Source: Arthrobacter sp. MYb227
GTDB lineage: Bacteria > Actinomycetota > Actinomycetes > Actinomycetales > Micrococcaceae
Direction: 5' to 3'
NCBI RefSeq assembly: GCF_002975435.1
Contig: NZ_PCPT01000017.1
Coordinates: forward strand, 1 to 58,485
DNA: 58,485 bases
Numbering within the stretch: position 1 is the first letter of the stretch; every line of letters begins with the position of its first letter. This document shows positions 25,689 to 42,046 of the stretch, in pieces. Position numbers and translations under genes: made by a program. The notes beneath the pieces are model-generated. The model ran no database searches, was not told the origin of the DNA, and worked only from the letters and a program-made list of their open reading frames with translations.

Positions 25689-25733
25689 CATGATGTCCTA
25701 GTCCGCTGTGCAGGTTTAGTTGCCGAGTTTTTG

Positions 25734-26798
25734 CTATTTTCCGGTGGCCGCGTGGGCGCCGGCGGCGAGAGCCGGGACTACCTTCTCAATGGCGTAGGGA
25801 ACCGACAGCGGTGAGGCAGCGGAGATGGAAAGAACTTCCATGTCATTGGCCGCTGCCACCAGGCCGCCCTTGGCAACCGCCGGGATCTGTGAGAACAGTT
25901 TGTTTGCCTTGATAGCGTCGGTGGTTGAACCGGCGGGGATCCAAGTGAAGAAGATATCGGATTCCAGTTCGTTACCGCGCTCGGCGGCCCACGGCAAGAA
26001 GAACTCGCCGTCCTTGACGTTTTCATCGACCATTGGTGCCTGCTTCATGCCCAAGGCGGTGAGGAAGCGTGGACGGGAGTCCCCCGTTGCATAGAGGTTG
26101 ATGCCGCCATCGGCCGGTTCCAGGTTTCCGGCGATGAAGACCGTGTCCTTGAAGACCGGGTTGGCGTCGGCAGCTGCCTTGAGTTTGCCTTCGACATCGG
26201 TGATCAGCGCGGTTGCCTCATCCTGCTGACCCAATGCTTGGCCCACAGCGGTGGTGACTTGCTGCCAGCTACTGGTGTAGTTGGGTGCGATGGGTGCGAT
26301 GACCGGTGCAATCTTGGAAAGCTTTTCGTATTCGTCCTTGGTCAGGCCCGAGTATCCGGCAACGATGAGATCCGGTTTGGTTTCGGCAATTGCCGTGAAG
26401 TTCACGCCGTCGGCTTCCGCATACTGCACCGGTGCCTTCTCGGTTCCAAGGGCGGCGCCCAGCTCGGTGAGCTTTGCGTCCTTCCAATCGGTGGAGCCCT
26501 GAGCATTGTTGCCCCAGACGTCTTCGGCCATCCCCACGGGAACCACACCCAAGGCCAGCACGGCATCGGCATTGACCCACGACACTGTGGCAATGCGTGT
26601 GGGTTTTTCGGTGATCTCGGTGGTGCCATAAATGTGTTTGATACTTACCGGGAAACTGGCCTCACCCGATGCCTCAGCGTTTGCCGTGCTACCCGATGAT
26701 TGGGGGGATGAACCCACCGGGGTTCCGCAGGCGCTGAGCGTCAGGGCGATGGTGGCCGAAGCTGCTGCGAGCAAGGCCGTACGACGAGTGAACTTCAT
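25734..26798 (-). CDS. Iron-siderophore ABC transporter substrate-binding lipoprotein
   Basis: 354 aa. A signal peptide with a twin-Arg-like start (KFTRR) ends in the lipobox LSAC with C24 as the lipid-modified cysteine. The mature part is a class III (FepB/FecB-type) binding protein: PTRIATVSWVNADAVLALGV and KPDLIVAGYSGLTKDEYEKLSKIAPVIA are typical. AAGGA lies upstream of the ATG. It is transcribed in the same direction as the permease-ATPase operon, from which it is separated by an opposite-strand gene, and is the likely partner of that system. An iron box lies about 120 bp upstream, so iron repression is expected. Confidence 0.93.
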   Translation of the reverse strand: MKFTRRTALLAAASATIALTLSACGTPVGSSPQSSGSTANAEASGEASFPVSIKHIYGTTEITEKPTRIATVSWVNADAVLALGVVPVGMAEDVWGNNAQGSTDWKDAKLTELGAALGTEKAPVQYAEADGVNFTAIAETKPDLIVAGYSGLTKDEYEKLSKIAPVIAPIAPNYTSSWQQVTTAVGQALGQQDEATALITDVEGKLKAAADANPVFKDTVFIAGNLEPADGGINLYATGDSRPRFLTALGMKQAPMVDENVKDGEFFLPWAAERGNELESDIFFTWIPAGSTTDAIKANKLFSQIPAVAKGGLVAAANDMEVLSISAASPLSVPYAIEKVVPALAAGAHAATGK

Positions 26799-26917
26799 CT
26801 GGTTGGAATCCTTCGTGATTCTGGAGCGTTGTGCGTGCGTGAGTGCAAGATTGCCTAGTTCAGCGCGGCAATGTAGTGGGTGGGGATCATGGAATGGACT
26901 TACCCCGCATTCCCCTG

Positions 26918-26936
26918 ACGAGTAAGGCTAACCTCA
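26918..26936 (-). promoter_or_regulatory. Candidate DtxR/IdeR iron box upstream of the binding-protein gene
   Basis: The stretch AGTAAGGCTAACCTCA contains the half-site AGGCTAACCT of the DtxR/IdeR consensus; by eye about 13 of 19 positions agree. It lies about 120 bp upstream of the binding-protein start and would place the gene under iron repression. Confidence 0.65.
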
Positions 26937-27345
26937 CACAAACCAATTAAGCAACGTCCAAGTAACCTATTTGGGCAGGCGGCGGACGGTTGATCCGGTG
27001 AAAAATCGCACCAGCTCGCGCAATTGGACGGCAAAAAGTGGGCTGCCGCACATTTTTGCGCCACCTCAAGCACACCTACGCTCGCCCCATTGCACCTGAG
27101 CCCACCAGCCCGCGACACCCTGGGGGGCAGCAAACCGCCCACACAAGCCCGTGGGTGCAGCAGAAAGCGGGCAATAGATGGCGCGGGATCAAGGAACGCA
27201 TCACATCGAACCCAGTCCCCGCGGGTTATCGAACCCCCCCTCACTTCGGGCGGTTCCGCTCAGTGGGACCCACTGTGAACCAAGTGTGACAGGGGTCATA
27301 GAAAAGAGTTTTAGGGAGCCGGAATCCGCGTAAACTCGGCGTAGC

Positions 27346-27364
27346 TTAGGCAAGCCTTGCTTGG
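27346..27364 (+). promoter_or_regulatory. Candidate DtxR/IdeR iron box (distal)
   Basis: TTAGGCAAGCCTTGCTTGG keeps the TTAGG arm and the central GCCT of the iron-box pattern; the right arm is degenerate. It lies about 155-170 bp upstream of the second binding-protein gene. Confidence 0.5.
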
Positions 27365-27408
27365 TAAAACGTGCCAAATGAGCGCCAGAACAGCCCACCG
27401 GCTTGCAC

Positions 27409-27427
27409 CTAGGCATGCCTTATCTAT
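27409..27427 (+). promoter_or_regulatory. Candidate DtxR/IdeR iron box (proximal)
   Basis: CTAGGCATGCCTTATCTAT resembles the iron-box pattern at about 12 of 19 positions and shares TAGGCA-N-GCCTT with the upstream site, 63 bp away. It is about 90 bp before the GTG start of the binding-protein gene, a reasonable operator position. Confidence 0.5.
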
Positions 27428-27517
27428 AGCGTTTCACTTGAGTTCATTTACGCAATGAGGTTGTTAGCTAATTACCCGGCCGGCCATCTCAGCACCATTT
27501 CATCGGAGAAAAGTACA

Positions 27518-28462
27518 GTGAAGATGTCTTTCCGCACCGCCCTGGGCACCGTAGCCGCGGGTGTATCACTGCTCGCATTGACCGCTTGTGGCGGTTCCCC
27601 CGAGGCAGGCGCCAACGCAGCCGATGGCAAGACCGTCGAGATCACCCACGCACAGGGAACCACCACGGTTCCTCTCAAGCCGGAAACCGTTTACACCTTC
27701 GATCTGGGTGTTCTTGATTCCATGAGCGCGCTGGACCTTACGGCTGATGGTGTGCCGGAAACCAAGTACCCCGAAGCTCTGGCCAAGTACAACGACAAGA
27801 GCGTCACCAAGATTGGTTCCATGAAGGAACCAGATTTTGAAGCGATCTCCAACGGCAACCCGGATCTGATCATCATCACCGGACGTACCGCGGGCTCCTA
27901 CGAAGAGCTCTCCAAGATTGCACCGACCGTCGATCTTTCGGTAGATGCCACCAAGCCACTTGATTCCTTCAAGGAACAGGCCGGCAAACTGGGTCAAATC
28001 TTCGATGTTGAATCACAGGTCACCGAGAAGCTCGCAGCCATCGACACCAAGATCAATGACGTCAAGGCCAAGAGCGCCGATGCCGGCAAGGGTCTGATCG
28101 TGATGACCTCCGGTGGCGAACTCACCGCCTACGGTGCCGGATCACGCTTCGGCCTGATCCACGACGTACTGGGAATTGCAACGGTTGCCGATATCAAGTC
28201 CGAGGGTTCCCACGGTGAATCGATCTCCTTCGAATTCCTCAAGACCAACAACCCGGACACCCTGTACGTGATTGACCGCGACTCGGCCATGGGCACTTCC
28301 GGTGCAGCTGCCTCCGCAGTACTGGATAACGAGCTGGTCAAATCGACAAATGCCGCAAAGAACAACAAGATCGTCAACCTAGACTCAAATGCTTGGTACA
28401 TGGTGGGCTACGGCCTAAACAACACAGCCAAGATGATCGATGAGGTAGCTGCGGGGCTCTAG
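27518..28462 (+). CDS. Siderophore-binding lipoprotein (YclQ/FatB/CeuE type)
   Basis: 314 aa. The signal peptide ends in the lipobox LTAC (C24). The mature sequence has features of the YclQ/FatB/CeuE group, which bind catecholate siderophores such as petrobactin or enterobactin fragments: VYTFDLGVLDSMSALDL, KEPDFEAISNGNPDLIII and GRTAGSYEELSKIAPTVDL. The GTG at 27518 is chosen because GGAG is 9 bases upstream; the ATG two codons later is too distant. It is the first gene of a four-gene operon with two permeases and an ATPase, and two iron-box-like sites precede it. Confidence 0.93.
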   Translation: MKMSFRTALGTVAAGVSLLALTACGGSPEAGANAADGKTVEITHAQGTTTVPLKPETVYTFDLGVLDSMSALDLTADGVPETKYPEALAKYNDKSVTKIGSMKEPDFEAISNGNPDLIIITGRTAGSYEELSKIAPTVDLSVDATKPLDSFKEQAGKLGQIFDVESQVTEKLAAIDTKINDVKAKSADAGKGLIVMTSGGELTAYGAGSRFGLIHDVLGIATVADIKSEGSHGESISFEFLKTNNPDTLYVIDRDSAMGTSGAAASAVLDNELVKSTNAAKNNKIVNLDSNAWYMVGYGLNNTAKMIDEVAAGL

Positions 28463-28498
28463 GCTCCCGCGGAAAGGTCCACTAGGGACACATCAACC

Positions 28499-29539
28499 AT
28501 GAGCGCACCAGTGCTACCGGAAGCGGTCGCCGCGGAAGAAATTCCGCTGGCGGCCGTTCCGCGTACCCGAAAGATTTCAGAAACTAGCTGGCTGATCATC
28601 GGCACCCTGGCGGTGCTGGTGATGGCGGGGGTGAGTTTGTTCGTCGGAGTTTCCGATGTCACGCTGCCCCAATTGCTTTCCGGTGATAAGGAAGCCTGGG
28701 AGCTGCTGTGGATTTCGCGGCTGCCACGCACCCTTGCCGTGATCCTCGCGGGAACCGCGGTGGCGGTTGCCGGATTGATCATGCAGCTGATGGTGCGCAA
28801 TAGATTTGTTGAGCCCTCCACGGTGGGAACCGTCGAATCGGCAACGCTTGGCATCTTGGTGGTCACCGTGGCGCTTCCGGCCGCACCCATGATGCTCAAA
28901 ATGGGTGTGGCATCGGTCTTTGCACTGGGCGGGACGGCCTTGTTCTTGGCCGTGCTGAACCGACTACCGGCCCGCAATACGCTGCTGGTTCCCATCGTGG
29001 GCATCATGCTTGGCGGCGTCATCGGCTCGGTGACAACATTCTTCGCCTATAAGTACGATCTGCTCCAGACGCTGAGCAACTGGATGATCGGAGACTTCTC
29101 CGGAGTGCTGCGCGGGCGTTATGAACTCTTATGGATCGTGGCGATCCTGACCGTCATTGGTTATATTGCCGCTGATAAATTTACTGTTGCCGGACTGGGT
29201 GCGGATTTCACCACGAACCTTGGCATGAACTACAAGGCAATCATGCGCCTGGGCCTGGTGCTTGTCTCACTGATTTCCGCGGTGGTTGTCACAACCGTGG
29301 GTGCGGTGCCATTCCTGGGGCTGATCGTACCCAACATCGTCTCGCTGATCTTTGGGGACAACCTGCGCCGCGCGGTGCCCTGGACAGCACTCTTTGGCGC
29401 GGGCTTCGTACTGCTCTGCGACATTATTGGCCGCACCATCCGCTACCCCTACGAGGTCCCGGTGGGCATGGTCATGAGCGTGCTCGGTGCCATCGCCTTC
29501 CTGATCCTGCTGCTACGAACCAGGAAACGAAATGCCTAA
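28499..29539 (+). CDS. Iron-siderophore ABC transporter permease (FecCD family, YclN-like)
   Basis: 346 aa with nine to ten membrane helices and the family blocks MVRNRFVEPSTVGTVESATL and PFLGLIVPNIVSL. The RFVEPSTVG variant in place of NPLADP is characteristic of the YclN/FatD subgroup. It follows the binding protein by 36 bp and overlaps the next permease gene by 8 bp, so the operon is tightly packed. It forms the heterodimeric channel with that permease. Confidence 0.93.
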   Translation: MSAPVLPEAVAAEEIPLAAVPRTRKISETSWLIIGTLAVLVMAGVSLFVGVSDVTLPQLLSGDKEAWELLWISRLPRTLAVILAGTAVAVAGLIMQLMVRNRFVEPSTVGTVESATLGILVVTVALPAAPMMLKMGVASVFALGGTALFLAVLNRLPARNTLLVPIVGIMLGGVIGSVTTFFAYKYDLLQTLSNWMIGDFSGVLRGRYELLWIVAILTVIGYIAADKFTVAGLGADFTTNLGMNYKAIMRLGLVLVSLISAVVVTTVGAVPFLGLIVPNIVSLIFGDNLRRAVPWTALFGAGFVLLCDIIGRTIRYPYEVPVGMVMSVLGAIAFLILLLRTRKRNA

Positions 29540-30593
29540 TCCGCTTGCCTCGCTACGTGAGCGACTACGCCCGGGACGCGGATTGACGCGCAACCCCTTT
29601 GACTCCGGGGGCTCGATGAGCAGCCGGGGATTCTCGTTCAAACGCATCTCGCCGGGTACGCTGATCACCATCCTTGCAGTGCTCACGCTTGTATGCGTGG
29701 TGCTGTTTATGACCATCGATCTCAAGGGGAATCTCTCCTACGCGCTTTCACGGCGCTCGATCCGCGTCGGTGCCATGCTGGTGGTTGCCATGGCAGTTGG
29801 CCTTTCCACGCTGATGTTCCAGACGGTCACCGCAAACCGCATCCTGACCCCATCGATCATGGGGTTTGATGCGCTGTACATCCTGATCCAAACCGCGCTG
29901 GTCTTTGCGCTGGGTTCCTCGACCCTGATGACCGCCACCCCGGCCCTGAAATTTGGTGTTGAGGTGGGGCTGATGGTGCTCTTCTCCGCGCTGCTCTACC
30001 GTTGGCTGTTCACCGGCGGGAACTCCTCGCTACACCTGATGCTGCTGGTGGGCATCGTGATTGGCACGCTCTTCCGCGGGTTCTCCTCACTGCTGCAACG
30101 CTTGATGGAACCCAGCGAATACATCGTGCTCCAGGACCTGTTCTTCGCCTCCTTCAACCAGGTAGATCCGGTACTGCTGGGGATCTCCGCGGTGGTGGTA
30201 GGCATTATTACGGTGATTGTCTGGCGATTGCGAAAGAGCTTTGACGTACTTGCGTTGGGCCGCGAAACGGCAATCAACCTGGGCGTCGATCATCAACGCG
30301 TGGTCACCTTGGTGCTGGTGCTGTGTTCAGTTCTTGTGGCGGTCTCCACCGCACTGGTGGGACCGGTAACCTTCTTTGGGCTACTGGTGGTCTCGCTGGC
30401 CTACCAAATGGTCCGCAAGTTCTCCCATGCCGCGCTCATTCCCATCGTCGCCCTGCTCGGTGCCATTACGCTCGTTGGTGGGCAGTTGGTACTTGAACGT
30501 GTCTTTGGTTTTGCCACCGCGCTCAGTGTGATCATTGAGTTTGCCGGCGGCCTGCTATTCCTCTACCTGCTTTTGAAGGGTTCCCTGAAGTGA
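29532..30593 (+). CDS. Iron-siderophore ABC transporter permease (FecCD family, YclO-like)
   Basis: 353 aa, second permease of the operon. A basic N-terminal tail of about 40 residues precedes the helices. The block TANRILTPSIMGFDALYILIQ and the C-terminal VGPVTFFGLLVVSLAYQMV are typical of the YclO/FatC subgroup. Its ATG lies inside the end of the preceding gene and its own stop overlaps the GTG of the ATPase gene. Confidence 0.93.
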   Translation: MPNPLASLRERLRPGRGLTRNPFDSGGSMSSRGFSFKRISPGTLITILAVLTLVCVVLFMTIDLKGNLSYALSRRSIRVGAMLVVAMAVGLSTLMFQTVTANRILTPSIMGFDALYILIQTALVFALGSSTLMTATPALKFGVEVGLMVLFSALLYRWLFTGGNSSLHLMLLVGIVIGTLFRGFSSLLQRLMEPSEYIVLQDLFFASFNQVDPVLLGISAVVVGIITVIVWRLRKSFDVLALGRETAINLGVDHQRVVTLVLVLCSVLVAVSTALVGPVTFFGLLVVSLAYQMVRKFSHAALIPIVALLGAITLVGGQLVLERVFGFATALSVIIEFAGGLLFLYLLLKGSLK

Positions 30594-31348
30594 TTCGCAT
30601 TGATTCGGTGTCCAAGTCCTATTCCGGGACCACGGTGGTGGATGCGGTCAGCACCGTCATACCCTCCGGTGGAGTCACCTCCATCATCGGGCCCAACGGC
30701 GCCGGAAAATCCACGCTACTCTCACTGATCTCCAGGTTGCTGCCCATGGACACGGGGTCGGTTTCCATCGCCGGGCTCGATGTGACAAAGACCGCGAGCA
30801 AGGATTTGGCCAAGTCGATGGCGATCCTGCGGCAGGATAACCACATCACCATGCGCTTGCGCGTGCGCGACCTGGTAGGTTTTGGGCGTTTCCCGCACTC
30901 GGGTGGGCACCCAACCTCGGTGGATCAAGAACACATTGAAAAGGCCATGGCGCAGCTGGATCTTACAGATTTGGCTGATAGGTTCCTTGACGAGCTTTCC
31001 GGTGGGCAACGCCAGCGTGCCTACATTGCCATGGTGCTGGCCCAGGATACCGAATACCTGCTGCTCGATGAGCCGCTGAACAACCTGGACATGAAGCATT
31101 CGGTGGAGATGATGCGGATGATCCGCAGGCTTGCCGATGAGCTGGGTAAGACGGTTGTGATAGTTATTCACGATATTAATTTTGCTTCATGCTATTCGGA
31201 TACGATCCTTGCCATGCGCCGGGGCGTATTGGTACATCAGGGTGCGCCGGCGCAGATCATGACGCAGGAAGTATTGCGCGATGTGTATGACATCGATATC
31301 CGTATTGAGGAGATCGATGGGAACCGGATTGGCGTGTACTTCGCCTAG
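30590..31348 (+). CDS. Iron-siderophore ABC transporter ATP-binding protein (YclP-like)
   Basis: 252 aa. Walker A GPNGAGKST lies near residue 35, the signature [19 protein letters not shown] follows, and Walker B is YLLLDEP. The switch histidine is in VIVIHDINFAS. It starts with GTG overlapping the TGA of the permease gene (GTGA). It energises the two permeases of this operon, giving a complete binding protein-permease-permease-ATPase set. Confidence 0.95.
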   Translation: MIRIDSVSKSYSGTTVVDAVSTVIPSGGVTSIIGPNGAGKSTLLSLISRLLPMDTGSVSIAGLDVTKTASKDLAKSMAILRQDNHITMRLRVRDLVGFGRFPHSGGHPTSVDQEHIEKAMAQLDLTDLADRFLDELSGGQRQRAYIAMVLAQDTEYLLLDEPLNNLDMKHSVEMMRMIRRLADELGKTVVIVIHDINFASCYSDTILAMRRGVLVHQGAPAQIMTQEVLRDVYDIDIRIEEIDGNRIGVYFA

Positions 31349-31730
31349 TTTGGCAGTTAGCATCTCGTTGAAAATGAGGCATCTACGCCCCGTGTTTGCG
31401 TGGATTCTTGTGTAACTGCCGGTAGAGGGGCTGACGATGGTAACCGCTAGGTCTAGCAGCAATATGCGGATCGCAGCATTGCTTACTGTTCGCCTAGGCC
31501 AGGCAAAGTAATCGGTTGAAATTCGCCCGCAGATGGCTATTTCGCTCGGTGGTGTCTCAAGGCATCAAGTTCTCGAAAATCGGCGAATTTGCGGCATCAT
31601 TACGGCAATTTTGGTATCTGCTTACAGCATCGCCACCGCCAGCCTTCATCTGGAACAAACTGCAACCCTATCCCAGCAGCTTGCCCAGGAACTCGGATCA
31701 ATACAAATAGCAATCTAGTGCGCAGCAAAA
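31349..31730. other. Intergenic region left of the recombinase relic
   Basis: No firm gene. A 61-codon frame starting at an ATG at 31533 has one hydrophobic segment (ICGIITAILVSAYSIATASL) and stops at 31718, 13 bp before the inverted repeat. It could be the remains of a gene cut by the element, but there is no recognisable family. Confidence 0.35.
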
Positions 31731-31801
31731 GATTATGCGAAGTCCACACGCTCTTTGCCGCGCATTCTGGACTTTGAAAGTATTCACGACTTCGCATAAT
31801 C
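31731..31801. repeat. Terminal-type inverted repeat beside the recombinase relic
   Basis: GATTATGCGAAGTC at 31731-31744 is repeated perfectly in inverted orientation at 31788-31801, with 43 bp between. Nested inside is a second inverted pair, AAGTCCA at 31740-31746 and TGGACTT at 31768-31774. The block begins 9 bp after the stop of the recombinase relic. Its position and nested structure suggest the end of a transposon-like element of the multi-recombinase (recombinase-in-trio) kind. Confidence 0.6.
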
Positions 31802-31809
31802 CTTGCTTA

Positions 31810-32052
31810 TTAGAGCAGGGTTCGTAACCACTTGACGAGGTCTGCGCGTTGTTCTTTGCCATAGGGGCTTTGGGGAACGATGTTCTGCTCGGCAGATTCG
31901 ATGGCTCGACGTTTGACTTCGGTGCTGGCCCTGGCATAAATCTCCGTGGTGGTGACACTTTCATGACCAAGAAAATCACGGATATAGACAAGATTCACGC
32001 CGGCATCTAGAAGATGCATAGCCTTCGAAAGCCGCTTATGTGGATGGTTTGG
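31810..32052 (-). pseudogene. Tyrosine recombinase/integrase, C-terminal relic
   Basis: The minus-strand frame is open from just after a TAA at 32053-32055 down to the stop at 31810, about 80 codons. It reads as the end of a phage-integrase-family recombinase. LSKAMHLLDAGVNLVYIRDF and LGHESVTTTEIYARA carry the conserved LGH box and the catalytic tyrosine. The region that should hold the catalytic R-H (normally PHxLRHxxAMH) is changed to PHKRLSKAMH, about one residue short. The N-terminal catalytic half is missing, so it cannot be active. It marks an old mobile element at the edge of the AT-rich islet. Confidence 0.75.
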
Positions 32053-32055
32053 TTA

Positions 32056-32525
32056 TGTGGCCATTGCGGTGTTTGTGCTGGTCAGACCGGTGGCGTAGCT
32101 GGCTTCGCACGCATAATCCCCGGGTACGCGGCTCAACGACTTGGTTCTTCCGCACATCTGGCCGGGTATCGGCCCTCGATATGTTCGAGTTTTCCGTGAC
32201 CGATTTTCTGCGCGGAAGACTGTTGCCGTCCCCGGACAAAGAGAAGAGTTGGCCTATCTGATCAACACCAGTAGGGAGCTCGATTCCCATGGAGGCATCA
32301 AATATTCGCAACGCGTCAGCGCAAGTGATCGACGCGTTGACGGCGGCATATACATAATATTCAAGTGTAAAACAAGCGTCTTTTGTACTTGAACTAGTGA
32401 TTAGAAAAAGTGCTGATTCCCATATATATTATGTTTTCCATCACTCGAAAAAAGAGTCTTCCTGAACAAGCCGAGCACTGAATCGTTTGTGAGGGGGGAA
32501 GACCCCGAAAGAAGAAGGCTCGCAA
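32056..32525. other. Unassigned stretch between recombinase relic and secreted-protein gene
   Basis: No gene that I can support. Overlapping open frames on both strands (about 70-90 codons) show no family similarity. Base composition turns markedly AT-rich from about 32,330. The end of the stretch must hold the promoter for the downstream gene; an AT-rich block CATATATATTATG lies near 32,425. Confidence 0.4.
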
Positions 32526-33731
32526 ATGCCTAACCTTGCATTAAAAAGACATCACAAAAAATCGCTTACAACGATGCTCGCAGCGACAACCGCATTCGCC
32601 TTAGTTTTTACTCTGGCAGATCCAACTATGGCGGCAGAAGACGCTTCACTCAGAACGGTATCTGAAGCCGCTTCCGCTTACGATGCCAACGATCCAAAAT
32701 CTATTGCAGCGTTGGCAGAGGCCGCTTCGCCAATCAATGCACTAACTCTTAGCGGTACTGATAACAGCTCGGTTTCTCTTACAGAGAGTGGGGCTTTCGT
32801 TTCTGTCGATGAGAAGGGAGTAGCTTCGCTTTCTGGCGTAGGGTCCCCAGAAATTTCAATTGGTGTGGCATCCCCGAACAATGATTCAACTCTGACAGAG
32901 GGTGTTTCTGTACAACGCAATGCTGCACCAGGTACTAACATCGTGACACGAGCTACTGCGAATGGTGCGCAGCTTATTGCTGTTCTTGAAGATTCGCAGG
33001 CTTCCTCTTCGCTTGACTTTGATCTTGATTTGCCGGCAGACGCTGAGCTTGTTGAAAATCCTGATGGGTCTGTCGCAATTGTTGCAGACGTAGAAATTGT
33101 GACGCCTGTGGATGAAAGCTTTGATGCTACTAGCGCCCAAATCGAATCAATTCTCGGAGATACGGACGACCCTGAAGAAATCACTCAGGAACAATGGGAT
33201 CAAATTGAAGCATTGCCTGAGGCTGAGACTCAAACGACAATAGCTCGACAACAGATTGCACTCATTGAGACGCCTTGGGCTGTAGACGCTGAGGGAGAGC
33301 ATCTTAAAACGCGTTTTGTTCTTAACGGAAATGGTTTAACCCAGATCATTGAAACTAATGAACAGACAGCTTTCCCTGTAACGGCCGACCCTAGCCTCGC
33401 TTGGTGGCTATGGACCGGGGCTACTTGCGCGGCAAATTTAGCTACAATTCTCTTCGGTGCAGCAAAACTAGTACAAGCTATAACAAAGATGAACGCTCTC
33501 GTTAAAAAGAGTGCAAAACTTTCTGCGGCCGTCAAAAAGCTCGGTGGAGCGAAGAAATTTCTTACTGCTATCTACAAGGCAGCCAAAGGATTCGTCGAAG
33601 GAAAGATCGGAAAGTACCTCACTAGAACGCAGATGTTAGCGCTTTCCTCTATCGGGTCTGGGGGGCTCGCACTTGTGGGGGATGCGTTAGGGATCGGGTC
33701 ATGCATCTCTCTGATCAAGGCAAAACTCTGA
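32526..33731 (+). CDS. Secreted protein with strongly cationic C-terminal domain, function unknown
   Basis: 401 aa. A basic start (LKRHHKKS) and hydrophobic core end near MAAED, giving a Sec signal peptide of about 37 residues. Residues 40-285 are acidic. At 249-289 there is the module PWAVDAEGEHLKTRFVLNGN ending in FPVTADPS, a pattern seen in other actinobacterial secreted proteins of unknown role. Residues 290-401 change character completely: WWLWTG, hydrophobic helices, about 15 Lys against two acidic residues after residue 310, and two cysteines (C301, C393). This looks like an acidic pro-region followed by a cationic, helix-rich peptide domain, as in precursors of membrane-active proteins. 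AAGAAGG precedes the ATG. The gene is AT-rich and next to a recombinase relic. Confidence 0.8.
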   Translation: MPNLALKRHHKKSLTTMLAATTAFALVFTLADPTMAAEDASLRTVSEAASAYDANDPKSIAALAEAASPINALTLSGTDNSSVSLTESGAFVSVDEKGVASLSGVGSPEISIGVASPNNDSTLTEGVSVQRNAAPGTNIVTRATANGAQLIAVLEDSQASSSLDFDLDLPADAELVENPDGSVAIVADVEIVTPVDESFDATSAQIESILGDTDDPEEITQEQWDQIEALPEAETQTTIARQQIALIETPWAVDAEGEHLKTRFVLNGNGLTQIIETNEQTAFPVTADPSLAWWLWTGATCAANLATILFGAAKLVQAITKMNALVKKSAKLSAAVKKLGGAKKFLTAIYKAAKGFVEGKIGKYLTRTQMLALSSIGSGGLALVGDALGIGSCISLIKAKL

Positions 33732-34090
33732 TGATTCTTGCCTTAGTATTTGGAACAATATACGGACTTTCAGCGGCTATATATCTAGTCATTGTATTGT
33801 CTGCAGCGAAGTCTAAGGGATTCCTTGGTGCACTGGTCGCAGGCATTCTAGTGACTGCCCAAGGGTTATTACTCTTCTTCAACGTTTCGTGGGCTCCGCG
33901 ACCCACTCATATTGCTGAGTCTTTCGGACTTAGCTTCAATGGAGATACCAAATTGACTATGTTTATAACGATTTTCGTGGTCACCGGAGGCATCCTAGCC
34001 ATCGCATATTTCAGTGGGTTAATCCGGTGGGTCTCACATTGGATCGACAGTATCGGAACTGGAAGATCTGAAAATGGGGAAAAAGCATAA
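33731..34090 (+). CDS. Small membrane protein coupled to the secreted cationic protein
   Basis: 119 aa with three hydrophobic segments (about residues 1-25, 33-53 and 80-105) and a short hydrophilic tail ending GRSENGEKA. Its ATG overlaps the TGA of the preceding gene (TGATG), so translation is coupled; an ATG ten codons upstream lies within the preceding gene and is less likely. I recognise no family. A small multi-pass protein coupled to a secreted, probably membrane-active protein would suit an immunity or export-helper role, but that is inference from arrangement only. Confidence 0.7.
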   Translation: MILALVFGTIYGLSAAIYLVIVLSAAKSKGFLGALVAGILVTAQGLLLFFNVSWAPRPTHIAESFGLSFNGDTKLTMFITIFVVTGGILAIAYFSGLIRWVSHWIDSIGTGRSENGEKA

Positions 34091-34128
34091 TTTCCAAAAC
34101 GGACTTTCCTAACACCAGGGCTCTGGAC

Positions 34129-34440
34129 ATGGCACTAAAGCTGAATTCAAACAGGCCCAGATTTCCGCGGAATATATTCTACAAAAACCTGTCGACAGTT
34201 GCCCGACTCGAGATAATTAATCTGAAGTCAGCTTACATCTGCTCCTTCAAAAATCTCATGAATCCGGGAAAATTCGAAGCAGTTTTGACCGAAATCCACT
34301 GGATCTGTACGAATAAATTATCTCGTGATGTCCAGACCCCTGAATCCGTCATTATTCTTTGTTTCTCATGGTTTGTGATTCTTGGCTTGCCGGTTGCAGG
34401 AGGTTTGGGATCGAAACTCACTGATGATTATGCAAAATAA
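34129..34440 (+). CDS. Hypothetical protein, 103 aa, possible third gene of the islet
   Basis: AT-rich open frame beginning 38 bp after the small membrane protein, with AGGG upstream of the ATG. The N-terminal two thirds are basic and polar; near the C-terminus there is one hydrophobic segment (VIILCFSWFVILGLPVAGGL). No family is recognised. It may be the last gene of the same unit or a chance frame in AT-rich DNA. Confidence 0.35.
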   Translation: MALKLNSNRPRFPRNIFYKNLSTVARLEIINLKSAYICSFKNLMNPGKFEAVLTEIHWICTNKLSRDVQTPESVIILCFSWFVILGLPVAGGLGSKLTDDYAK

Positions 34441-34623
34441 TTCATGGAGTTGCGGCTGGGTTTCGCCCGATGCAGGCACCGTCGAGCGTAAGATTCGCCA
34501 CAGTGGGAATGTCACACAAATACGTTGAACCCCTGATTGACCTGATGTTTGAAGATTTTTGACGCATCGCGGACGTAACAATGATGCAGTGGTCACACTT
34601 CCGAAGGATGGGAAGATTTATAC

Positions 34624-36093
34624 ATGACCACGCAAAAGATTGCACAGGGTGGAACCCGGCCCACACTGCGCCAACAACTAGGTGCCCGTAAGCCGATCGA
34701 GGCGTTCATCGCCGAGGCAGGAAACGGCACCGGGGACGGCCCCAAGCTACGCCGCACCCTCGGGCTACTGCACCTGACAATGATCAGCGTCGGTGCCACA
34801 CTGGGCACCGGCATTTTCGTCGTACTCTCCTCCTCGGTTCCTATGGCCGGTCCGGCCGTCTGGATTTCCTTTGCGATTGCCGGTCTTGCCGCGCTCTTTG
34901 CCGCGCTTTCCTATGCGGAGATGGCCGGCGCGGTTCCGGTCTCCGGGTCTAGCTACACCTACACCTACGCAACCATGGGCGAGGGGTTGGCCTGGATCTG
35001 TGGTTGGTGCTTGGTGCTTGAATATGCGGTCTCCGTGGCCGCGATCGCCGTGGGTGCCGGCGAATACCTCAACGAAATGGGCAGGACGCTGGGTCTAGAT
35101 CTACCCGCGGCGCTGACCAATCCCCCGGGCACCGACGGCGGAGTGTTCAATATCCCCGCGCTGATCATCGTGCTCTTTGCCACCGTGCTGCTGGTACGCG
35201 GCACCCGCGAATCCGCGGTGGTCAACACCGTGCTGGTGTTCATTAAGATCGCGGTGCTGGTGTTCTTCATCGCCATTGCCTTTAGCGCCTTCACCTCCGG
35301 AAACTTTGACCCGCTGCTGCCCATGGGCACCGCCGGTGTCTCGGCCGCCGCGGCACGCCTATTCTTCTCCTACATTGGTTTTGATGCGGCCTCAACGGCC
35401 GGTGAGGAAGCCAAAAACCCACAGCGCGATCTGCCGCGAGCCATCGTGCTCTCCATGGTCATCATTACCGTGCTGTATATTCTGGTGGCGATCACCGCGA
35501 TTGGTGCACGTGAATGGACCTGGTTTGAGGGCAAGGAAGCCGCGCTGGCGCAGCTGCTTGAAGAAGTCACCGGGCAGGGGTGGGTCTCGCTGCTCTTTGC
35601 CGCAGGTGCGGTTCTTTCCATCATTTCCATCGTGATCACCGTGCTCTACGGACAGACTCGTATCCTGGTGGCCATGAGCCGCGATGGCATGGTGCCGAAG
35701 GTCTTTGGCCGCCTCTCGCCACGCAATGGTGCGCCGGTGGCCGGCACCTGGATTACCGGTGGAGCCGTGGCCATCGTGGCCGGGTTGGTTCCGCTGGGCC
35801 AGCTGGCCGATGCCACAAGTATCGGTACGCTCTTTGCGTTCTCGCTGGTATCACTGGCCGTGATTATTCTGCGCCGTACCCAGCCGGAGCTGCCGCGTAC
35901 CTTCAAGGTGCCGCTCTACCCGCTGACTCCGATCCTCGCGATTCTCTTCTGTGGTTACCTGATGGCGAACCTTGGGGTGATCACCTGGGTGGTCTTTGGC
36001 ATCTGGATGCTGGTGGGTGCCGCCGTGTACCTGGGTTATGGACGTCGTAAGTCAGTGGTTGCCAATAACTGGGACAAAATAGTTTCCAAGTAG
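34624..36093 (+). CDS. APC-superfamily cationic amino acid permease
   Basis: 489 aa with about twelve membrane helices and an 45-residue cytoplasmic N-terminus. The first helix carries the APC substrate motif VGATLGTGIFV, followed by SYAEMAGAVPVSGSSYTY and, later, FFSYIGFDAASTAGEEAKNPQRD. These are typical of the CAT (cationic amino acid transporter) subfamily, also YfnA-like proteins. GGGAAG lies upstream of the ATG. It is a single gene closed by a hairpin. Substrate is inferred from the family. Confidence 0.92.
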   Translation: MTTQKIAQGGTRPTLRQQLGARKPIEAFIAEAGNGTGDGPKLRRTLGLLHLTMISVGATLGTGIFVVLSSSVPMAGPAVWISFAIAGLAALFAALSYAEMAGAVPVSGSSYTYTYATMGEGLAWICGWCLVLEYAVSVAAIAVGAGEYLNEMGRTLGLDLPAALTNPPGTDGGVFNIPALIIVLFATVLLVRGTRESAVVNTVLVFIKIAVLVFFIAIAFSAFTSGNFDPLLPMGTAGVSAAAARLFFSYIGFDAASTAGEEAKNPQRDLPRAIVLSMVIITVLYILVAITAIGAREWTWFEGKEAALAQLLEEVTGQGWVSLLFAAGAVLSIISIVITVLYGQTRILVAMSRDGMVPKVFGRLSPRNGAPVAGTWITGGAVAIVAGLVPLGQLADATSIGTLFAFSLVSLAVIILRRTQPELPRTFKVPLYPLTPILAILFCGYLMANLGVITWVVFGIWMLVGAAVYLGYGRRKSVVANNWDKIVSK

Positions 36094-36123
36094 GGATTTA
36101 TGACTTTGGCGTAAGGCCAACAT

Positions 36124-36159
36124 GACGATGCCCCGGGAATGGATTCCCGGGGCATCGTC
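36124..36159. terminator. Bidirectional hairpin terminator
   Basis: Perfect 17-bp stem: GACGATGCCCCGGGAAT at 36124-36140 and its complement at 36143-36159 with a two-base gap, between the convergent permease gene and the FtsX-like gene. Confidence 0.88.
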
Positions 36160-36177
36160 GTAACTAGGTGTGAGTGG

Positions 36178-37506
36178 CTAGTCGATGCGAACTAGCTTCA
36201 ACGTCTGGGATGTGGAGGTCAGAGCCACGGCTCCGCGTACGGCAAGCACTCCGGCAACCAGCGTGCCTAAGATGATCGCCACCGAGAGCGGGGCGAAGAT
36301 CATCGCCATACCGGCCAGCGGCAGCACCAGCACGCCGCTGATAATGATTGAGCCAAGCCCCACGCCGATCACCGGTCCCATGACCGAACCGACCCGGGCC
36401 TTTTCCATGGTTGAGCGTTGCACACCAAGCATGTTCAGCCCCGCATAGAGTTCGGCACGGTCAAGGGTTGTCGCGGCCTGAGTGATGGCCGTTGAACAGG
36501 CAACGGAGATGAAGGAAACGACGATGGTGATGATGACCCCTGTCATCACATCCGCACTAAGCAGCGCGTCGGGGCTACCCGGTGAAGATTCGGTACCGGC
36601 CATGTTCATCAACGCAGCTCCACTGCCACCGACTACAGCAACAAAGCAGGTCATGGCGATGCCGGAGACCTGTCGCCAAGCCTGAGCGGGATTTTCCAGG
36701 ATCATGCGTGCGGCAAGTAGCTTTTCGGGTGTTTCGGCCTTTTTCAGTTTTGCCTTACCGATCAGGCCCACTGCCCATGGACCGACCAGATTCAGTGCGC
36801 CAACCCCCAAGGCAAAACCACCAAGTAGCACTGCAAGCATGACGGCCAGATCCTTGAACACTGAAATCATCGAGAATGCTTGGGAGATGCCAGCAATCAG
36901 GCCAACGACGATGAGTGCTCGAATCCAGCGTGGTTTTGGCGTTTGGCTGCGGTTGCGCACTCCCAGTGGAGAGACGATGATTTTTCGCATGCCAAAACCT
37001 GACGAAAGCGCGGCAATCAGTACAACGCCAAGCACTACCAGGGCGATGATTCCGGGGTTGAGCCAAATGGCGGCACCAATGGCCGAACCTTGGAATTGAA
37101 TCATTCCTACAAGTGGTGCCATACCGGCGTACAGCGCGATGCCTGCCATTGCTCCGGTGAAGGCAACCAGCGCGGATTCCACAACGGTAATACCGAGGAC
37201 CAGTCCCGGGGTGCCGCCAAGTAGCCGAACCGTGGAGAGCCGGAGGTCTTGGCTGCGGGCCGAGAGCCGGGCTGCGGCGGAGCCAAGCACGGCAAGCGGC
37301 ACGATCAGCAAGACGCAGGCTAGTCCGGCAAGCATCAAATACATGCCGCTGAGTTCGTTTTGAATGCGGTTGAAGGACAGTGCGCCGGCAATAGTTGTCA
37401 GTACCAGTGCAGAGACCAGGCCGTAGGCGCCTGCGGTGAGCAGCATCGGGGCTCGGCGTGCGGCCGTGGGTTTGCCCAGCAGCCAGGCCAGGGAGAGGGT
37501 ACGCAT
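36178..37506 (-). CDS. FtsX-like ABC transporter permease
   Basis: 442 aa, membrane protein with about eight hydrophobic segments in two groups, without an obvious large extracellular domain. Lengths and repeats fit the FtsX/BceB-like permease family of MacB-type systems. The start MRTLSLAWLLG overlaps the stop of the ATPase gene by one base (TAATG). The longer upstream frame lies inside that ATPase gene. With the ATPase it would form an exporter or mechanotransmission system for peptides or lipoproteins. Confidence 0.85.
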   Translation of the reverse strand: MRTLSLAWLLGKPTAARRAPMLLTAGAYGLVSALVLTTIAGALSFNRIQNELSGMYLMLAGLACVLLIVPLAVLGSAAARLSARSQDLRLSTVRLLGGTPGLVLGITVVESALVAFTGAMAGIALYAGMAPLVGMIQFQGSAIGAAIWLNPGIIALVVLGVVLIAALSSGFGMRKIIVSPLGVRNRSQTPKPRWIRALIVVGLIAGISQAFSMISVFKDLAVMLAVLLGGFALGVGALNLVGPWAVGLIGKAKLKKAETPEKLLAARMILENPAQAWRQVSGIAMTCFVAVVGGSGAALMNMAGTESSPGSPDALLSADVMTGVIITIVVSFISVACSTAITQAATTLDRAELYAGLNMLGVQRSTMEKARVGSVMGPVIGVGLGSIIISGVLVLPLAGMAMIFAPLSVAIILGTLVAGVLAVRGAVALTSTSQTLKLVRID

Positions 37507-38312
37507 TAGTGCTGCGCCCCCGGTGCGATGGTGTTCGGTGATCCGGGACGGGTTTCGGAGGTGATCTTGCCATCGCGCAGCGAAATGATCCGATCGCAAC
37601 GTGCGGCAACATCGGCATCGTGGGTAACCATCACCAACGTGTTGCCGCGTCCAACTGTGGATTCCATCAGGACGTTAAGCACCTCGGTGCCAGTCGCGGA
37701 GTCGAGGGCGCCGGTGGGTTCATCGGCAAAGATGACCTTTGCGCCGGTAACCTGGGCGCGGGCTATTGCAACGCGTTGGGCTTGGCCGCCGGAGAGTTGG
37801 CCAATGCGACGTTCCTCCATCCCGGCAAGACCCAGCGCGCTAAGCCACTGGTTGGCCTGCGGAAGTGCTGCGGCTCGTGGCAGTCCGTTGATCATTAGCG
37901 CCATGGCGACGTTTTCCACGGCGGTGAGTTCGGGGATCAGTAGCCCGGATTGGAAGACAAAGCCGAAGGCCTCGCGGCGCAGCTTGGATCGGGCGCTCTC
38001 CCCCAGCGTGGTGATGTCTTGCTGGCCGGCGGACGAAGCGAGCAGTACAGATCCGGAATCCGGCTTTTCGATACCCGCAAGGGTGTGTAGCAGCGTTGAT
38101 TTGCCCGAACCCGAGGGACCCATGATTGCCACCGATTCCCCGGTGAGGATCTCCAGATCCACGCCATCGAGCGCCAAGGTAGATCCATAGGCGCGGCGTA
38201 GGGCTCGGGCGCTGAGCACCGGGGCTGAAGAGTGCTGGGTGGGGTTGTTGCTTGCGGCATGGCTGAAAATGGTGCCGGGTGCCTGTTCTGGTGCGGAGTT
38301 TGCTTCGATCAT
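37506..38312 (-). CDS. ABC transporter ATP-binding protein (LolD/MacB type)
   Basis: 268 aa. Walker A is GPSGSGKST, then FVFQSGLLIPELTAVENVAM, the signature LSGGQAQRVAIARA, and Walker B VIFADEPTGALD, which is the characteristic ending of MacB/LolD ATPases. About 30 extra residues precede the nucleotide-binding domain; a later start is possible but none is better supported. Immediately followed by the FtsX-like permease gene in one operon. Confidence 0.92.
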   Translation of the reverse strand: MIEANSAPEQAPGTIFSHAASNNPTQHSSAPVLSARALRRAYGSTLALDGVDLEILTGESVAIMGPSGSGKSTLLHTLAGIEKPDSGSVLLASSAGQQDITTLGESARSKLRREAFGFVFQSGLLIPELTAVENVAMALMINGLPRAAALPQANQWLSALGLAGMEERRIGQLSGGQAQRVAIARAQVTGAKVIFADEPTGALDSATGTEVLNVLMESTVGRGNTLVMVTHDADVAARCDRIISLRDGKITSETRPGSPNTIAPGAQH

Positions 38313-38576
38313 GACTTTAGTTTTTCAAAAATGATCCGGTACGGCATCGGAGCAGATGATGAAGTATGCGTTCGATGGCTCCTACCTAGGGTGGAGATGA
38401 ACGGTTCCGGAATGCTACCTGTGAGGTTTGAAGGTAAAAATCTACCGATTAGTGATATTTGGCGCTATGGTTGGCTGAACTGAAGGTGTTTTAGGTGGTC
38501 AGCAAGGATTTTTGATTCCCTGGAACGCCCTCATGTTTGTCTGGTCTTGGTTCGGCTCTTGAGGGGGAAGTTGGAC

Positions 38577-39140
38577 ATGGAAAATATGACATCGTGGACG
38601 CGCATGCTGGGCATTTCGTTGCGTCCATTCACCGGGCATGCCCCGCTATCGCTAATAATTCGAGGTGCAATTCAAGCGGCAGTCAGTATTTTCTTCTTGG
38701 TGATTGGCATCAAGATGCAAGGGACGCTGAACGAAGTTTCGGCGGTCGATGCAGGGGCTAAGCAGCTAAGCGGACTGTTCGTCATGTTTGGCTTTGTCGT
38801 GGTGATGATGCTGATTTACGGGTTGGCAAAAGTCGTCGTCGGCATCCTCGATTTGGTGCCACGCAGCACGGTGCCGGGAACCGTGGTGAGCATTTCCGAA
38901 CGAAAATTCTTAGACTTCCTGCCCGACGTTGTGAACAACGCGTTATGGGACAGGGGAAATAACACCGGACAATCATGGTCCGAAAAACGCAGGGTCCGCC
39001 ACGAAGTGGTGGTTGATACTGGAGCGGGAACTAAGGCTTGGACCGTGCGGAACCTGAAGAAGGTACGCGCCCTAGTCCCGGGCCAGCGCATCACCCTGAC
39101 GGTGAGCCCAATTGTTGGCTACGTCGAAAAAATTGAGTAA
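38577..39140 (+). CDS. Hypothetical membrane protein, 187 aa
   Basis: Two hydrophobic segments at about residues 27-50 (PLSLIIRGAIQAAVSIFFLV) and 67-95, then a soluble C-terminal half of about 90 residues with strand-like sequence (PGTVVSISERKFLDFLP, HEVVVDTGAG, GQRITLTVSPIVGYVEKIE). I do not recognise the family. A purine-rich GGGGGAAG site precedes the ATG. The next gene, a lipoprotein, starts 64 bp later and is probably in the same operon. Confidence 0.8.
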   Translation: MENMTSWTRMLGISLRPFTGHAPLSLIIRGAIQAAVSIFFLVIGIKMQGTLNEVSAVDAGAKQLSGLFVMFGFVVVMMLIYGLAKVVVGILDLVPRSTVPGTVVSISERKFLDFLPDVVNNALWDRGNNTGQSWSEKRRVRHEVVVDTGAGTKAWTVRNLKKVRALVPGQRITLTVSPIVGYVEKIE

Positions 39141-39204
39141 CAGTTTCTTGGGACTGGCAAAGATACTGACACGAAAACCACGAACAAAGGGATTTAGCAG
39201 CGCA

Positions 39205-39633
39205 ATGAGTACTGCAATCAAGAAACTTAGCTGGGCAAGCATTGGTGCATTGTTGGTGGTGGGACTAGTTGGATGCGGCGGTTCGAATCCTGACGCCTCG
39301 GCAACACCACAGGCAACGACACCCTCCGCAAAGCAACCCGCGACGGAACAACCGGCATCAAACGCACTCTCGGAATCGGCAGCCCAAGCGAGCACCCCGA
39401 TTGGCACGCGCAAGGATGTCACTTGGGTTTTGGAGCAGCAGCTCGAAGAATACAACGCCAAGGCGCGCTGGGAGGGTGACACCTTGTACATGAGCATGGA
39501 CGGTGAACGGGAAAATCCTCTCAATGGCAGGCACTGCAGACTCATGGATACTCTGCTTGAACCCACTGACAGTTTTGTGCTCGAATTCCCCGATGGCACT
39601 ATCCCGTGCAGCGAAATTCCCGGCGCTGAGTAA
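39205..39633 (+). CDS. Small lipoprotein, function unknown
   Basis: 142 aa. Signal peptide with lipobox LVGC (C24). It is followed by a low-complexity linker rich in Ala, Thr, Pro and Gln (residues 28-70) and a small folded domain of about 65 residues with two cysteines (in GRHCRLMD and TIPCSEIP) that could pair. The ATG at 39205 begins the signal peptide; the longer frame overlaps the preceding gene. Likely tethered to the outer face of the membrane; no family is recognised. Confidence 0.78.
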   Translation: MSTAIKKLSWASIGALLVVGLVGCGGSNPDASATPQATTPSAKQPATEQPASNALSESAAQASTPIGTRKDVTWVLEQQLEEYNAKARWEGDTLYMSMDGERENPLNGRHCRLMDTLLEPTDSFVLEFPDGTIPCSEIPGAE

Positions 39634-39666
39634 CTGTAAAGTCACTGAGCACCAGGAACATTCTGC

Positions 39667-40836
39667 TTAACCGAGGTTGGCGAAGGCCTGCGCTAAATGG
39701 GTGGGGACCATGGCGATGAGTGGCATCTCGTCGCGGTCAATGACCGCTGACTTGTACTTGCGCAGCACCGCTGCTCCATCATTCGGCCAGGAGAAGTCAG
39801 GCAGGCCGAGGGCAACCTGGTAGAGCTCAGCTACCGTGCTGGGGTGAGCCTCGGCCAACATCTGGAGGACAAAGGCCGGGATTTGGGTATCTTCAAGGTA
39901 GCCACGCAGGACTTCGGCTCCCGGATCATTGGCGCTTTCCGGGGGCGTTGTGTGAGCATCCTCGAACACATCGTAATCGACAAGGAAAACTGCACCCTTG
40001 ACCGGGTGATGGGTAAGCCTGACACCCTCACGTTGGGCAAACCCGGCGGGGAATGAGGCATCCGGGGCCAAATCCGTGCCATCAATCGCTGTGTTCTCGG
40101 TCTTTTCCTCGCCAAGCATGGATTCTTGGGTGCAAGTTACTAGGAATTTTCGGTAGGCCTCGATCATTTGGGCGCCTGTGCCGATGATCGTCGTTGCACC
40201 AAAGAGCTCGGTGAAAATACGGTGTTGGTTGGCTACCGTTGCGCTTGCCTTGGCGAGTTTCGCCGGGTTACGGAAGGGCAGCGAGTGATCGACGCTTAGC
40301 AATTTGGCGGCCATTGAATAAGCGGTGTTGGTGTCCTGCGGGCCAAAGTTTTTGGTGGTTCCGCTGAGCGTATAGACGTTGCCGATTGGAACGATGCGGG
40401 TCATGACATAGCCATTGACAGTGACAGGGCTGATTGCCTCGGAACCCTGCGAAGAGTAGGTGGGGTAGTCGAGTTCATCGATGAGGTTACGTAGCAGCAT
40501 GCGTTCGTTCTTGTGCTCGATTACCTTGAAGATCCCGAAGACTGCGTGCTCACGCCAAGATTCATAGATTGCACGGTCTTGCGTGCTGAGGGTCTTATTT
40601 GTACGCAGGAAGCGGTCGATCAATGGCTCGGAGCCCGGTCCGCGGTCATAGATGATCGATTCGAGGGCCTCGTAGATAGCGTTTTCTTGGCTCAGTCCGG
40701 TGCCTGCCAGTGACTGAAAACGCGCTGCCAAACGCTTCTTGAAACCCGGTGAAGTTGCATATGAGACAAGCGCGCCCTTGAGCTCGGCTGTCTTGTCAAT
40801 CAGGGTTTGCAGGCCTTGCGCTGTCAATGAGTCCAT
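39667..40836 (-). CDS. Conserved-looking cytoplasmic protein, 389 aa, function unknown
   Basis: Full-length open frame with normal high-GC codon use. No signal peptide or membrane helices. The N-terminal third is helical and charged, with GPGSEPLIDRFL and WREHAVFGIFKVIEHKNER. The middle has strand-like segments with VNGYVMTRIVPIGNVYTLSG. I do not recognise a named domain. The ATG at 40836 starts MDSLTAQGLQTL. It is downstream of, and in the same direction as, the sugar operon but separated from it by about 60 bp, so it may be co-transcribed with it. Confidence 0.75.
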   Translation of the reverse strand: MDSLTAQGLQTLIDKTAELKGALVSYATSPGFKKRLAARFQSLAGTGLSQENAIYEALESIIYDRGPGSEPLIDRFLRTNKTLSTQDRAIYESWREHAVFGIFKVIEHKNERMLLRNLIDELDYPTYSSQGSEAISPVTVNGYVMTRIVPIGNVYTLSGTTKNFGPQDTNTAYSMAAKLLSVDHSLPFRNPAKLAKASATVANQHRIFTELFGATTIIGTGAQMIEAYRKFLVTCTQESMLGEEKTENTAIDGTDLAPDASFPAGFAQREGVRLTHHPVKGAVFLVDYDVFEDAHTTPPESANDPGAEVLRGYLEDTQIPAFVLQMLAEAHPSTVAELYQVALGLPDFSWPNDGAAVLRKYKSAVIDRDEMPLIAMVPTHLAQAFANLG

Positions 40837-40894
40837 CTGGGTATTTTCTCCCGGTCCGGCTCAGCTAGGCAAACCCGCCACATCTTGGTGGATA

Positions 40895-41917: not shown

Positions 41918-42046
41918 CGGCGTTTTCCTTTTGTTTGCAAGTTTTCGGCTAGACCACGCAATCTGTGGCGAGGGGTGTGGTGCTTGGAACCAGAGTTGGC
42001 CTCCCACCGGTAAGTAAGTAGGAGGCTATCAAACACCCTGTACCTG

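Follow-up and report, generated by a model that had tools for sequence, protein, structure and literature searches.

The stretch of DNA analysed here (the window) is a contig of 58,485 nucleotides from Arthrobacter sp. MYb227, in which a low-GC islet carries two overlapping genes, encoding the secreted protein P0001 and the small membrane protein P0002. By comparison with their relatives, P0001 is likely to be a closticin-574-like preprobacteriocin built on a polymorphic-toxin carrier, and P0002 its membrane immunity protein. Taken as a single locus, the pair most plausibly adds a new member to the closticin-like group. A sequence-only reading of this DNA had proposed a bacteriocin-like or contact-dependent antagonism unit. 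Its central guess appears to be right in kind; for contact dependence no evidence was found, the precedent being a secreted bacteriocin.

Exchangeable ends on a conserved carrier

The family, which is large and mostly actinobacterial, was gathered from 166 loci. These yielded 159 open reading frames (ORFs) with the module end, or 153 after removal of duplicates; length rules excluded 13, and clustering was done on the remaining 140. At E<=1e-3, 9537 of 9730 module pairs are linked, as against 753 of 9730 C-terminal-domain pairs, a comparison biased toward module links because the members were gathered via the module or P0001. The C-terminal domains of the 140 unique members fall into 20 clusters. 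The class names A to K were assigned by eye over the BLAST clusters, with A and B forming one cluster and the singleton L064 put in B; the 10 unclassified members were excluded from the junction, module-neighbour and downstream-link analyses, the first two of which cover 130 members.

The boundary between the constant and the variable part is an Asp-Pro dipeptide (DP), which is invariant in a 24-row alignment (A3) and present at the boundary in 129 of the 130 members. Between classes, identity falls from 1.00 at the Asp and 0.99 at the Pro to 0.06 at the next residue; anchoring on DP inflates the count at DP itself, not the drop after it. The nearest module neighbour belongs to the same class in 109/130 cases, so module and end are usually co-inherited, and modules up to 58% identical carry different ends. 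A constant N-terminal part with exchangeable ends, as in polymorphic toxins, is thus observed, and it supports the earlier proposal of a pro-region with a detachable, probably membrane-active C-terminal peptide. The C-terminal domain had also been expected to vary faster than the pro-region. Instead, it is swapped outright between members, and the 15 most extreme same-class pairs, which are the top of a list and not an average, show the opposite, in that conservation of the C-terminal domain exceeds that of the module by 25-36 points.

The pro-region is acidic in 122/130 members and the C-terminal domain is basic in 120/130. In P0001, residues 37-289 comprise 45 acidic and 8 basic residues and residues 290-401 comprise 16 basic and 2 acidic residues, which, with a Sec signal peptide assigned by eye, confirms the signal peptide, acidic middle and cationic C-terminal domain described previously. 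The tryptophan at the junction and the two cysteines are likewise borne out, as Trp293, Trp294, Cys301 and Cys393 are invariant both in a 7-row alignment of P0001 with six relatives (A1) and in an 11-row alignment of the C-terminal domain (A4). The class of the window, class A, comprises 11 members with two invariant cysteines, an invariant tryptophan pair and an all-helical predicted fold. The model of the C-terminal domain of P0001 reaches a predicted local distance difference test (pLDDT) of 76.5 and a predicted template modelling score (pTM) of 0.65, while the carrier is modelled with strands at a mean pLDDT of 58. Profile A3, built from 24 aligned modules ending in FPVxADP, matches the window at 33036-33392 and 32883-33086. 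No Pfam or NCBIfam model matched the carrier of the family. P0001 has no LXG or other Pfam domain above the cut-off, no RHS or other repeats in the Pfam scan, and no LXG/WXG family in Pfam or NCBIfam at E up to 1.

Several ends belong to domains that are common to other toxin systems. EndoU_bacteria (L094, E 3.9e-6) and DUF4258 (L136, E 7.9e-8) are both matched above the cut-off, with one member of each class scanned, and EndoU is frequent in polymorphic toxin systems (PMC3482391). The WHH-like class shows a pattern nearly that of Tox-WHH in the same paper, with no Pfam WHH match. DUF2599 was matched in 3/26 of the members scanned, and its name was given by eye to a class of 40. Other ends include short cationic bacteriocin-like types. 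Those of L055, L105 and L114 are 48 residues long (IWLAPWxVKCLIGIGI...) and are followed by a conserved soluble protein of 97-104 aa, an arrangement reminiscent of class II bacteriocin immunity. The nuclease classes share a hydrophobic start after the Asp-Pro (FWIPAL, FWIPAI, WFIPLIPIAL and LPLIAIAL in L007, L013, L042, L053, L094 and L122), which is possibly a common entry helix taking the enzyme through the target membrane.

Downstream partners and the homologues of P0002

With regard to the genes that follow the carrier, the test for partners was mechanical: it sought a small ORF starting -40 to +120 nt from the stop, assigned membrane segments by 19-residue hydropathy, and covered 139 of the 140 members (one has too little downstream sequence) and 209 control genes, drawn from 20 stretches that were each 20 kb long. 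Such an ORF follows 101/139 members and 9/209 controls when one or more membrane segments are required, and 68/139 and 5/209, respectively, when two or more are. By class, a partner with at least one segment is found in 9/11 members of A, 7/7 of B, 1/1 of C, 34/40 of E, 39/49 of F, 2/2 of J and 3/3 of K, compared with 0/5 of D, 0/4 of G and 1/4 of H (the nuclease classes, together 1/13), 0/3 of I and 5/10 of the unclassified members. Class B partners have at least two segments in only 1/7. The WHH-like ends of class D are followed by an ORF of 307-341 aa in 5/5 tested, with DUF1963 in the 2/2 of these that were scanned. Class G partners have 177-196 aa. The DUF4258 ends of class H are followed by DUF2283 in 3/3 scanned, of four members, and likewise in a Clavibacter plasmid annotation.

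Similarities between the downstream proteins, with L191 added by hand to class A, give 55 of 55 links within one class and none across (chance share 0.24), whereas the modules link across nearly all pairs. As same-class relatives are also closer in their modules, shared descent contributes to these within-class links. By comparison, a putative cognate immunity gene lies directly downstream, as is typical of polymorphic toxins.

In the window, the ATG of P0002 overlaps the TGA stop of P0001 as TGATG, and an alternative in-frame ATG at 33701 would extend P0002 to 129 aa. P0002 has three hydrophobic segments, and the 401-aa protein and its coupled 119-aa membrane protein are both present as originally described. 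Of the 148 genomes searched, three carry homologues of P0002: its own genome has two (57% and 36%), and G180 and G210 have one each. The G180 homologue, in two frames, begins 8 nt past the end of a match to a class A domain in decay, at a place other than the window's site. Of the two copies in the own genome, one neighbours a MerR-like gene and the other is found between secG-like and pgl-like genes, as in G210 (names by reading). P0002-like genes occupy the same secG-like/pgl-like place in two species of the genus (L278:3391-3777 and L279:3553-3975), and the gene at this site is possibly a domesticated immunity gene. The stand-alone homologues of P0002 look like orphan immunity genes. At L191, for which no module match is listed, a class A piece overlaps a membrane ORF resembling the L155 partner. 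L191, these apparent orphans and the relic pair of G180 correspond to the orphan toxin or immunity cassettes of polymorphic toxin systems.

The closticin precedent and the alternatives

Closticin 574 is a bacteriocin of Clostridium tyrobutyricum published in 2003 (Kemperman). PMC10731318 places it among peptides with failed N-terminal sequencing, in conflict with what the 2003 paper reportedly describes; closticin is mentioned there and in PMC11322243 in passing, and appears among Paenibacillus larvae prophage genes in PMC9341999. Closticin 574 starts out as a pre-protein of 309 aa with a probable signal peptide in its first 27 residues, and the cut that gives the antimicrobial peptide of 82 aa most likely takes place outside the cell (PMC10888436). 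Our link to it goes through an annotation: gp25 of Paenibacillus phage BN12, annotated 'putative closticin', matches residues 241-317 of P0001 at 41.5%, scores 100.6 bits against profile A3 and has, directly after it, a protein of 120 aa that is hydrophobic by eye. Closticin-like ends were also recognised by eye in L289 (Lachnospiraceae) and L290 (Clostridiales). The 'FPVTADP module' of the sequence-only reading is real, and its description as lacking a function does not hold, as one group that bears it, the closticin 574 type, has a published function.

PMC10888436 prints a primer designed on the predicted mature end of CLB, a closticin-like peptide. As it translates to PDWSKIAA, the predicted mature form begins at the proline of Asp-Pro; the class B member L017 reads PDWGKIGM after the Asp. 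The cut near residue 289 that had been anticipated is supported, since the predicted mature closticin relative starts at the proline of this Asp-Pro. With the shared tail removed, a comparison of class A and the closticin-type class B by hhalign gave 47.5% at E 1.9e-4, while the best of 50 column shuffles gave 4.4%, and the two classes are probably remote relatives.

Based on these observations, P0001 would be exported by the Sec pathway, with signal peptidase taking off about 36 residues, and the charge of the acidic, beta-rich carrier suggests that it keeps the cationic C-terminal domain inactive. The bond Asp288-Pro289, which is the exact edge between carrier and variable domain, would then be cut outside the cell, as in the closticin precedent. 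The freed helical protein of 113 residues, rich in Trp and with a probable closing disulphide between Cys301 and Cys393, may insert into and depolarise the membrane of related non-immune cells. P0002, translationally coupled and paired with P0001 by comparison, would block this depolarisation in the producer membrane, like TsaI against TspA (PMC7456083). Closticin 574 shares with P0001 a secreted pre-protein, a signal peptide, a long pro-region and a C-terminal peptide that is probably freed outside the cell. They differ in that the mature part has 82 residues in closticin 574 and a proposed 113 in P0001, whose domain is only weakly alignable to the closticin type, in their clostridial and actinobacterial origins, and in the membrane partner proposed for P0001.

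With regard to other known systems, the N-terminal domain of MafB differs from the P0001 carrier, and MafB is not known to be processed at an Asp-Pro. MafB/MafI of Neisseria belongs to another phylum, and the end of P0001 is not a nuclease; the likeness to the P0001 family lies in signal-peptide-dependent secretion, variable toxins including EndoU and a specific immunity gene directly downstream (PMC4287609). TspA/TsaI of Staphylococcus aureus resembles our proposal in its membrane-depolarising, polymorphic C-terminal domain, its adjacent polytopic membrane neutraliser and a locus with several immunity homologues. However, TspA is a type VII substrate, its DUF443 immunity proteins have five predicted membrane segments, and an acidic cleavable carrier like that of P0001 is not described in the available part of that paper (PMC7456083). 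Rhs/CDI-type toxins also combine a conserved carrier, exchangeable toxin ends and cognate immunity genes (PMC3482391), whereas the P0001 carrier is small (about 250 aa) and has no Pfam RHS or other repeats. P0001 does not have the short leader of a circular bacteriocin, as 288 residues precede its proposed mature domain, compared with a leader of 2-48 residues (PMC10888436). Nor does it fit an LXG/WXG type VII toxin, as no such domain was matched in Pfam or NCBIfam and a signal peptide is seen by inspection instead.

Against the closticin link stands a closticin-like product made cell-free, which showed no activity on either of two indicators (PMC10888436). The class A members L003 and L063 have no adjoining small membrane ORF in the mechanical test. 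Homologues lacking the membrane gene had been named beforehand as grounds for refutation; the two genes adjoin in 9/11 class A members, and L003 and L063 count toward that refutation. The C-terminal domain could also be antibacterial without forming pores, by acting on a specific envelope target (receptor, lipid II or transporter) that P0002 would mask. Partner types differ by class, being soluble for the 48-aa ends of class I and membrane or, by eye, lipoprotein-like for class E, so that modes of action probably vary in the family, and P0002 is a membrane protein under either reading. For P0001 we nevertheless regard this as unlikely, because its 16 basic to 2 acidic residues, initial tryptophan and all-helical predicted fold favour direct membrane action.

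That P0002 is a secretion or processing partner of P0001 would fit its translational coupling, and no protease gene was read beside it in the window. This is quite improbable given that the downstream partners track the C-terminal class and not the carrier (55/55 links), that homologues of P0002 occur with no toxin domain found nearby and that the nuclease classes have soluble partners. Of the 'immunity or secretion partner' suggested previously, the first half is retained, since P0002 behaves by comparison like an immunity gene with class-specific links, and the second is disfavoured. We give very little credence to P0001 being a structural or enzymatic secreted protein whose variable ends reflect surface or substrate diversity: the module does occur, mostly with weak scores, in large ORFs (about 1,000-4,300 aa) and in proteins named DNRLRE on plasmids, but the same carrier bears EndoU, DUF4258/DUF2283, WHH-like/DUF1963 and closticin-annotated ends with class-specific neighbours. 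Delivery by cell contact, through a type VII system or wall anchoring and not by diffusion, seems just as doubtful and was rejected, no evidence for it having been found. Some Gram-positive polymorphic toxins are delivered by type VII systems (PMC5555719, PMC7456083), whereas P0001 shows a signal peptide in place of LXG or any other Pfam domain above the cut-off, and the precedent, closticin, is a secreted product with extracellular processing (PMC10888436).

The islet and the wider family

The features of the locus are listed in the following table.

Features of the P0001/P0002 locus and their positions in the window
Feature	Position	Strand	Basis
Preprobacteriocin-like protein P0001, 401 aa	32526..33731	+	ORF; member of the 140-ORF set; match to phage protein annotated 'putative closticin'
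Signal peptide, P0001 residues 1-36 (KRHHKK, hydrophobic core, TMA/AED)	32526..32633	+	Inspection of sequence
Acidic beta-rich carrier / pro-region, residues 37-288, with PWAxDAxG...FPVTAD module	32634..33389	+	Profile A3, charge count, structure model
Asp288-Pro289 junction, proposed processing site	33387..33392	+	Alignment A3, boundary DP count, predicted closticin-like mature start
C-terminal toxin/bacteriocin domain (proposed), residues 289-401	33390..33728	+	Alignments A1 and A4; helical model
Membrane protein P0002, 119 aa, proposed immunity protein	33731..34090	+	Hydrophobic segments, TGATG overlap, G180 relic pair, orphan homologues
Islet missing from the site in 6/6 congeners compared	31349..34600	.	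DNA comparison
Tyrosine recombinase relic (C-terminal piece)	31813..32019	-	Phage_integrase PF00589, E 1.2e-4, below cut-off

The islet measures about 3.25 kb, and its GC content is 0.45-0.53 across 31250-34749, compared with mostly 0.55-0.64 in the flanks shown (25000-42000); a second dip, to 0.50, lies outside it near 38500 (38250-38749). The flanking genes, an upstream ABC-ATPase and a downstream permease (names by reading), have matches in 15/15 genomes of the genus, own included, and their best matches adjoin in the same orientation in 12 of the 14 others, the arrangement being different in G074 and G111. The spacing between them is 182-271 nt in nine of these 12 genomes and 503, 877 and 1171 nt in the other three, compared with 3275 nt in the window. 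DNA comparison with six of the 12 shows that homology breaks at the ATPase stop (31346-31351) and resumes just ahead of the permease (34601-34621) in 6/6. Because the site is empty in these congeners, the simplest reading is that the two-gene unit was probably gained as a cassette, in line with the acquisition that the low GC, here confirmed, had suggested. The integrase relic, which covers positions 139-170 of the 172 of Phage_integrase, fits entry of the islet and does not prove the way of entry. The third small gene suspected at 34129-34440 was dropped, as nothing backs the ORF: it has no Pfam or NCBIfam match, and tblastn against ten fetched stretches gave chance-level pieces only.

Matches to P0001 occur in 50/295 genomes of its bacterial family, own included (E<=1e-3). 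Profile A3 matches 72/396 genomes and 40/110 genera of the order. Across the phylum it matches 19/396 genomes, seven of them (own genome among these) with E below 1e-20. In the phylum of the Lachnospiraceae metagenome-assembled genome it matches 9/329, strongly only in that genome itself. Named carriers include Glutamicibacter, Microbacterium, Streptomyces, Leucobacter, Curtobacterium, Demequina, Kocuria polaris and Bifidobacterium bombi. In Streptomyces caatingaensis, four loci of equal score (L204-L207) lie on four contigs, about 10 kb or less from a contig end, and we read them as copies or terminal repeats.

Among 72,556 plasmid records, 16 were matched with P0001 and 20 with the phage module, and the carrier is found on plasmids of Streptomyces, Rhodococcus, Clavibacter and Arthrobacter. 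Plasmid pCM2_1101 of Clavibacter capsici (L300), typed as mobilizable, bears a carrier annotated DUF4258 and then DUF2283, near peptidase and pectate lyase genes. Two phages bear members (four records): in Microbacterium phage Min1 (L288) and Paenibacillus phage BN12 (L287) the neighbours have 61 and 120 aa and are hydrophobic by eye, and the BN12 pair sits between transposase and lysis genes. The large ORFs with the module (L070-L086) mostly have weak scores, and one of them has FG-GAP repeats. The same module is present in a Rhodococcus plasmid protein of about 894 aa annotated as TNT domain-containing (L299). In view of these larger proteins, the carrier may also form part of bigger toxins.

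We lean towards the view that an unrecognised Sec-dependent polymorphic-toxin chassis exists, with the closticin 574 precursor as its only tested member, and that it would release interchangeable payloads at the same Asp-Pro bond. This chassis would be a small acidic carrier, frequent in a single order of Actinomycetota, sparser across the phylum as a whole, borne also by plasmids and two phages and rare in Bacillota, with membrane-active bacteriocins paired with class-specific membrane guards and nucleases paired with soluble antitoxins. A closticin carrier serving as a polymorphic-toxin chassis for both nuclease and bacteriocin payloads was not found in the literature searched, which mostly excluded subscription papers. 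If this view is true, a single release step serves both bacteriocins and polymorphic nuclease toxins, and the sequence of a new bacteriocin could be taken directly from the residue after the Asp-Pro. Large families of Actinomycetota proteins called 'hypothetical secreted proteins', among them some with DUF2599, would then gain a function that can be tested, along with predictions of the processing site and the immunity genes. Should the reading of P0001 and P0002 be right, the family amounts to a catalogue of protein bacteriocins that come with their resistance genes, and it ties a bacteriocin described in 2003 to the polymorphic toxins.
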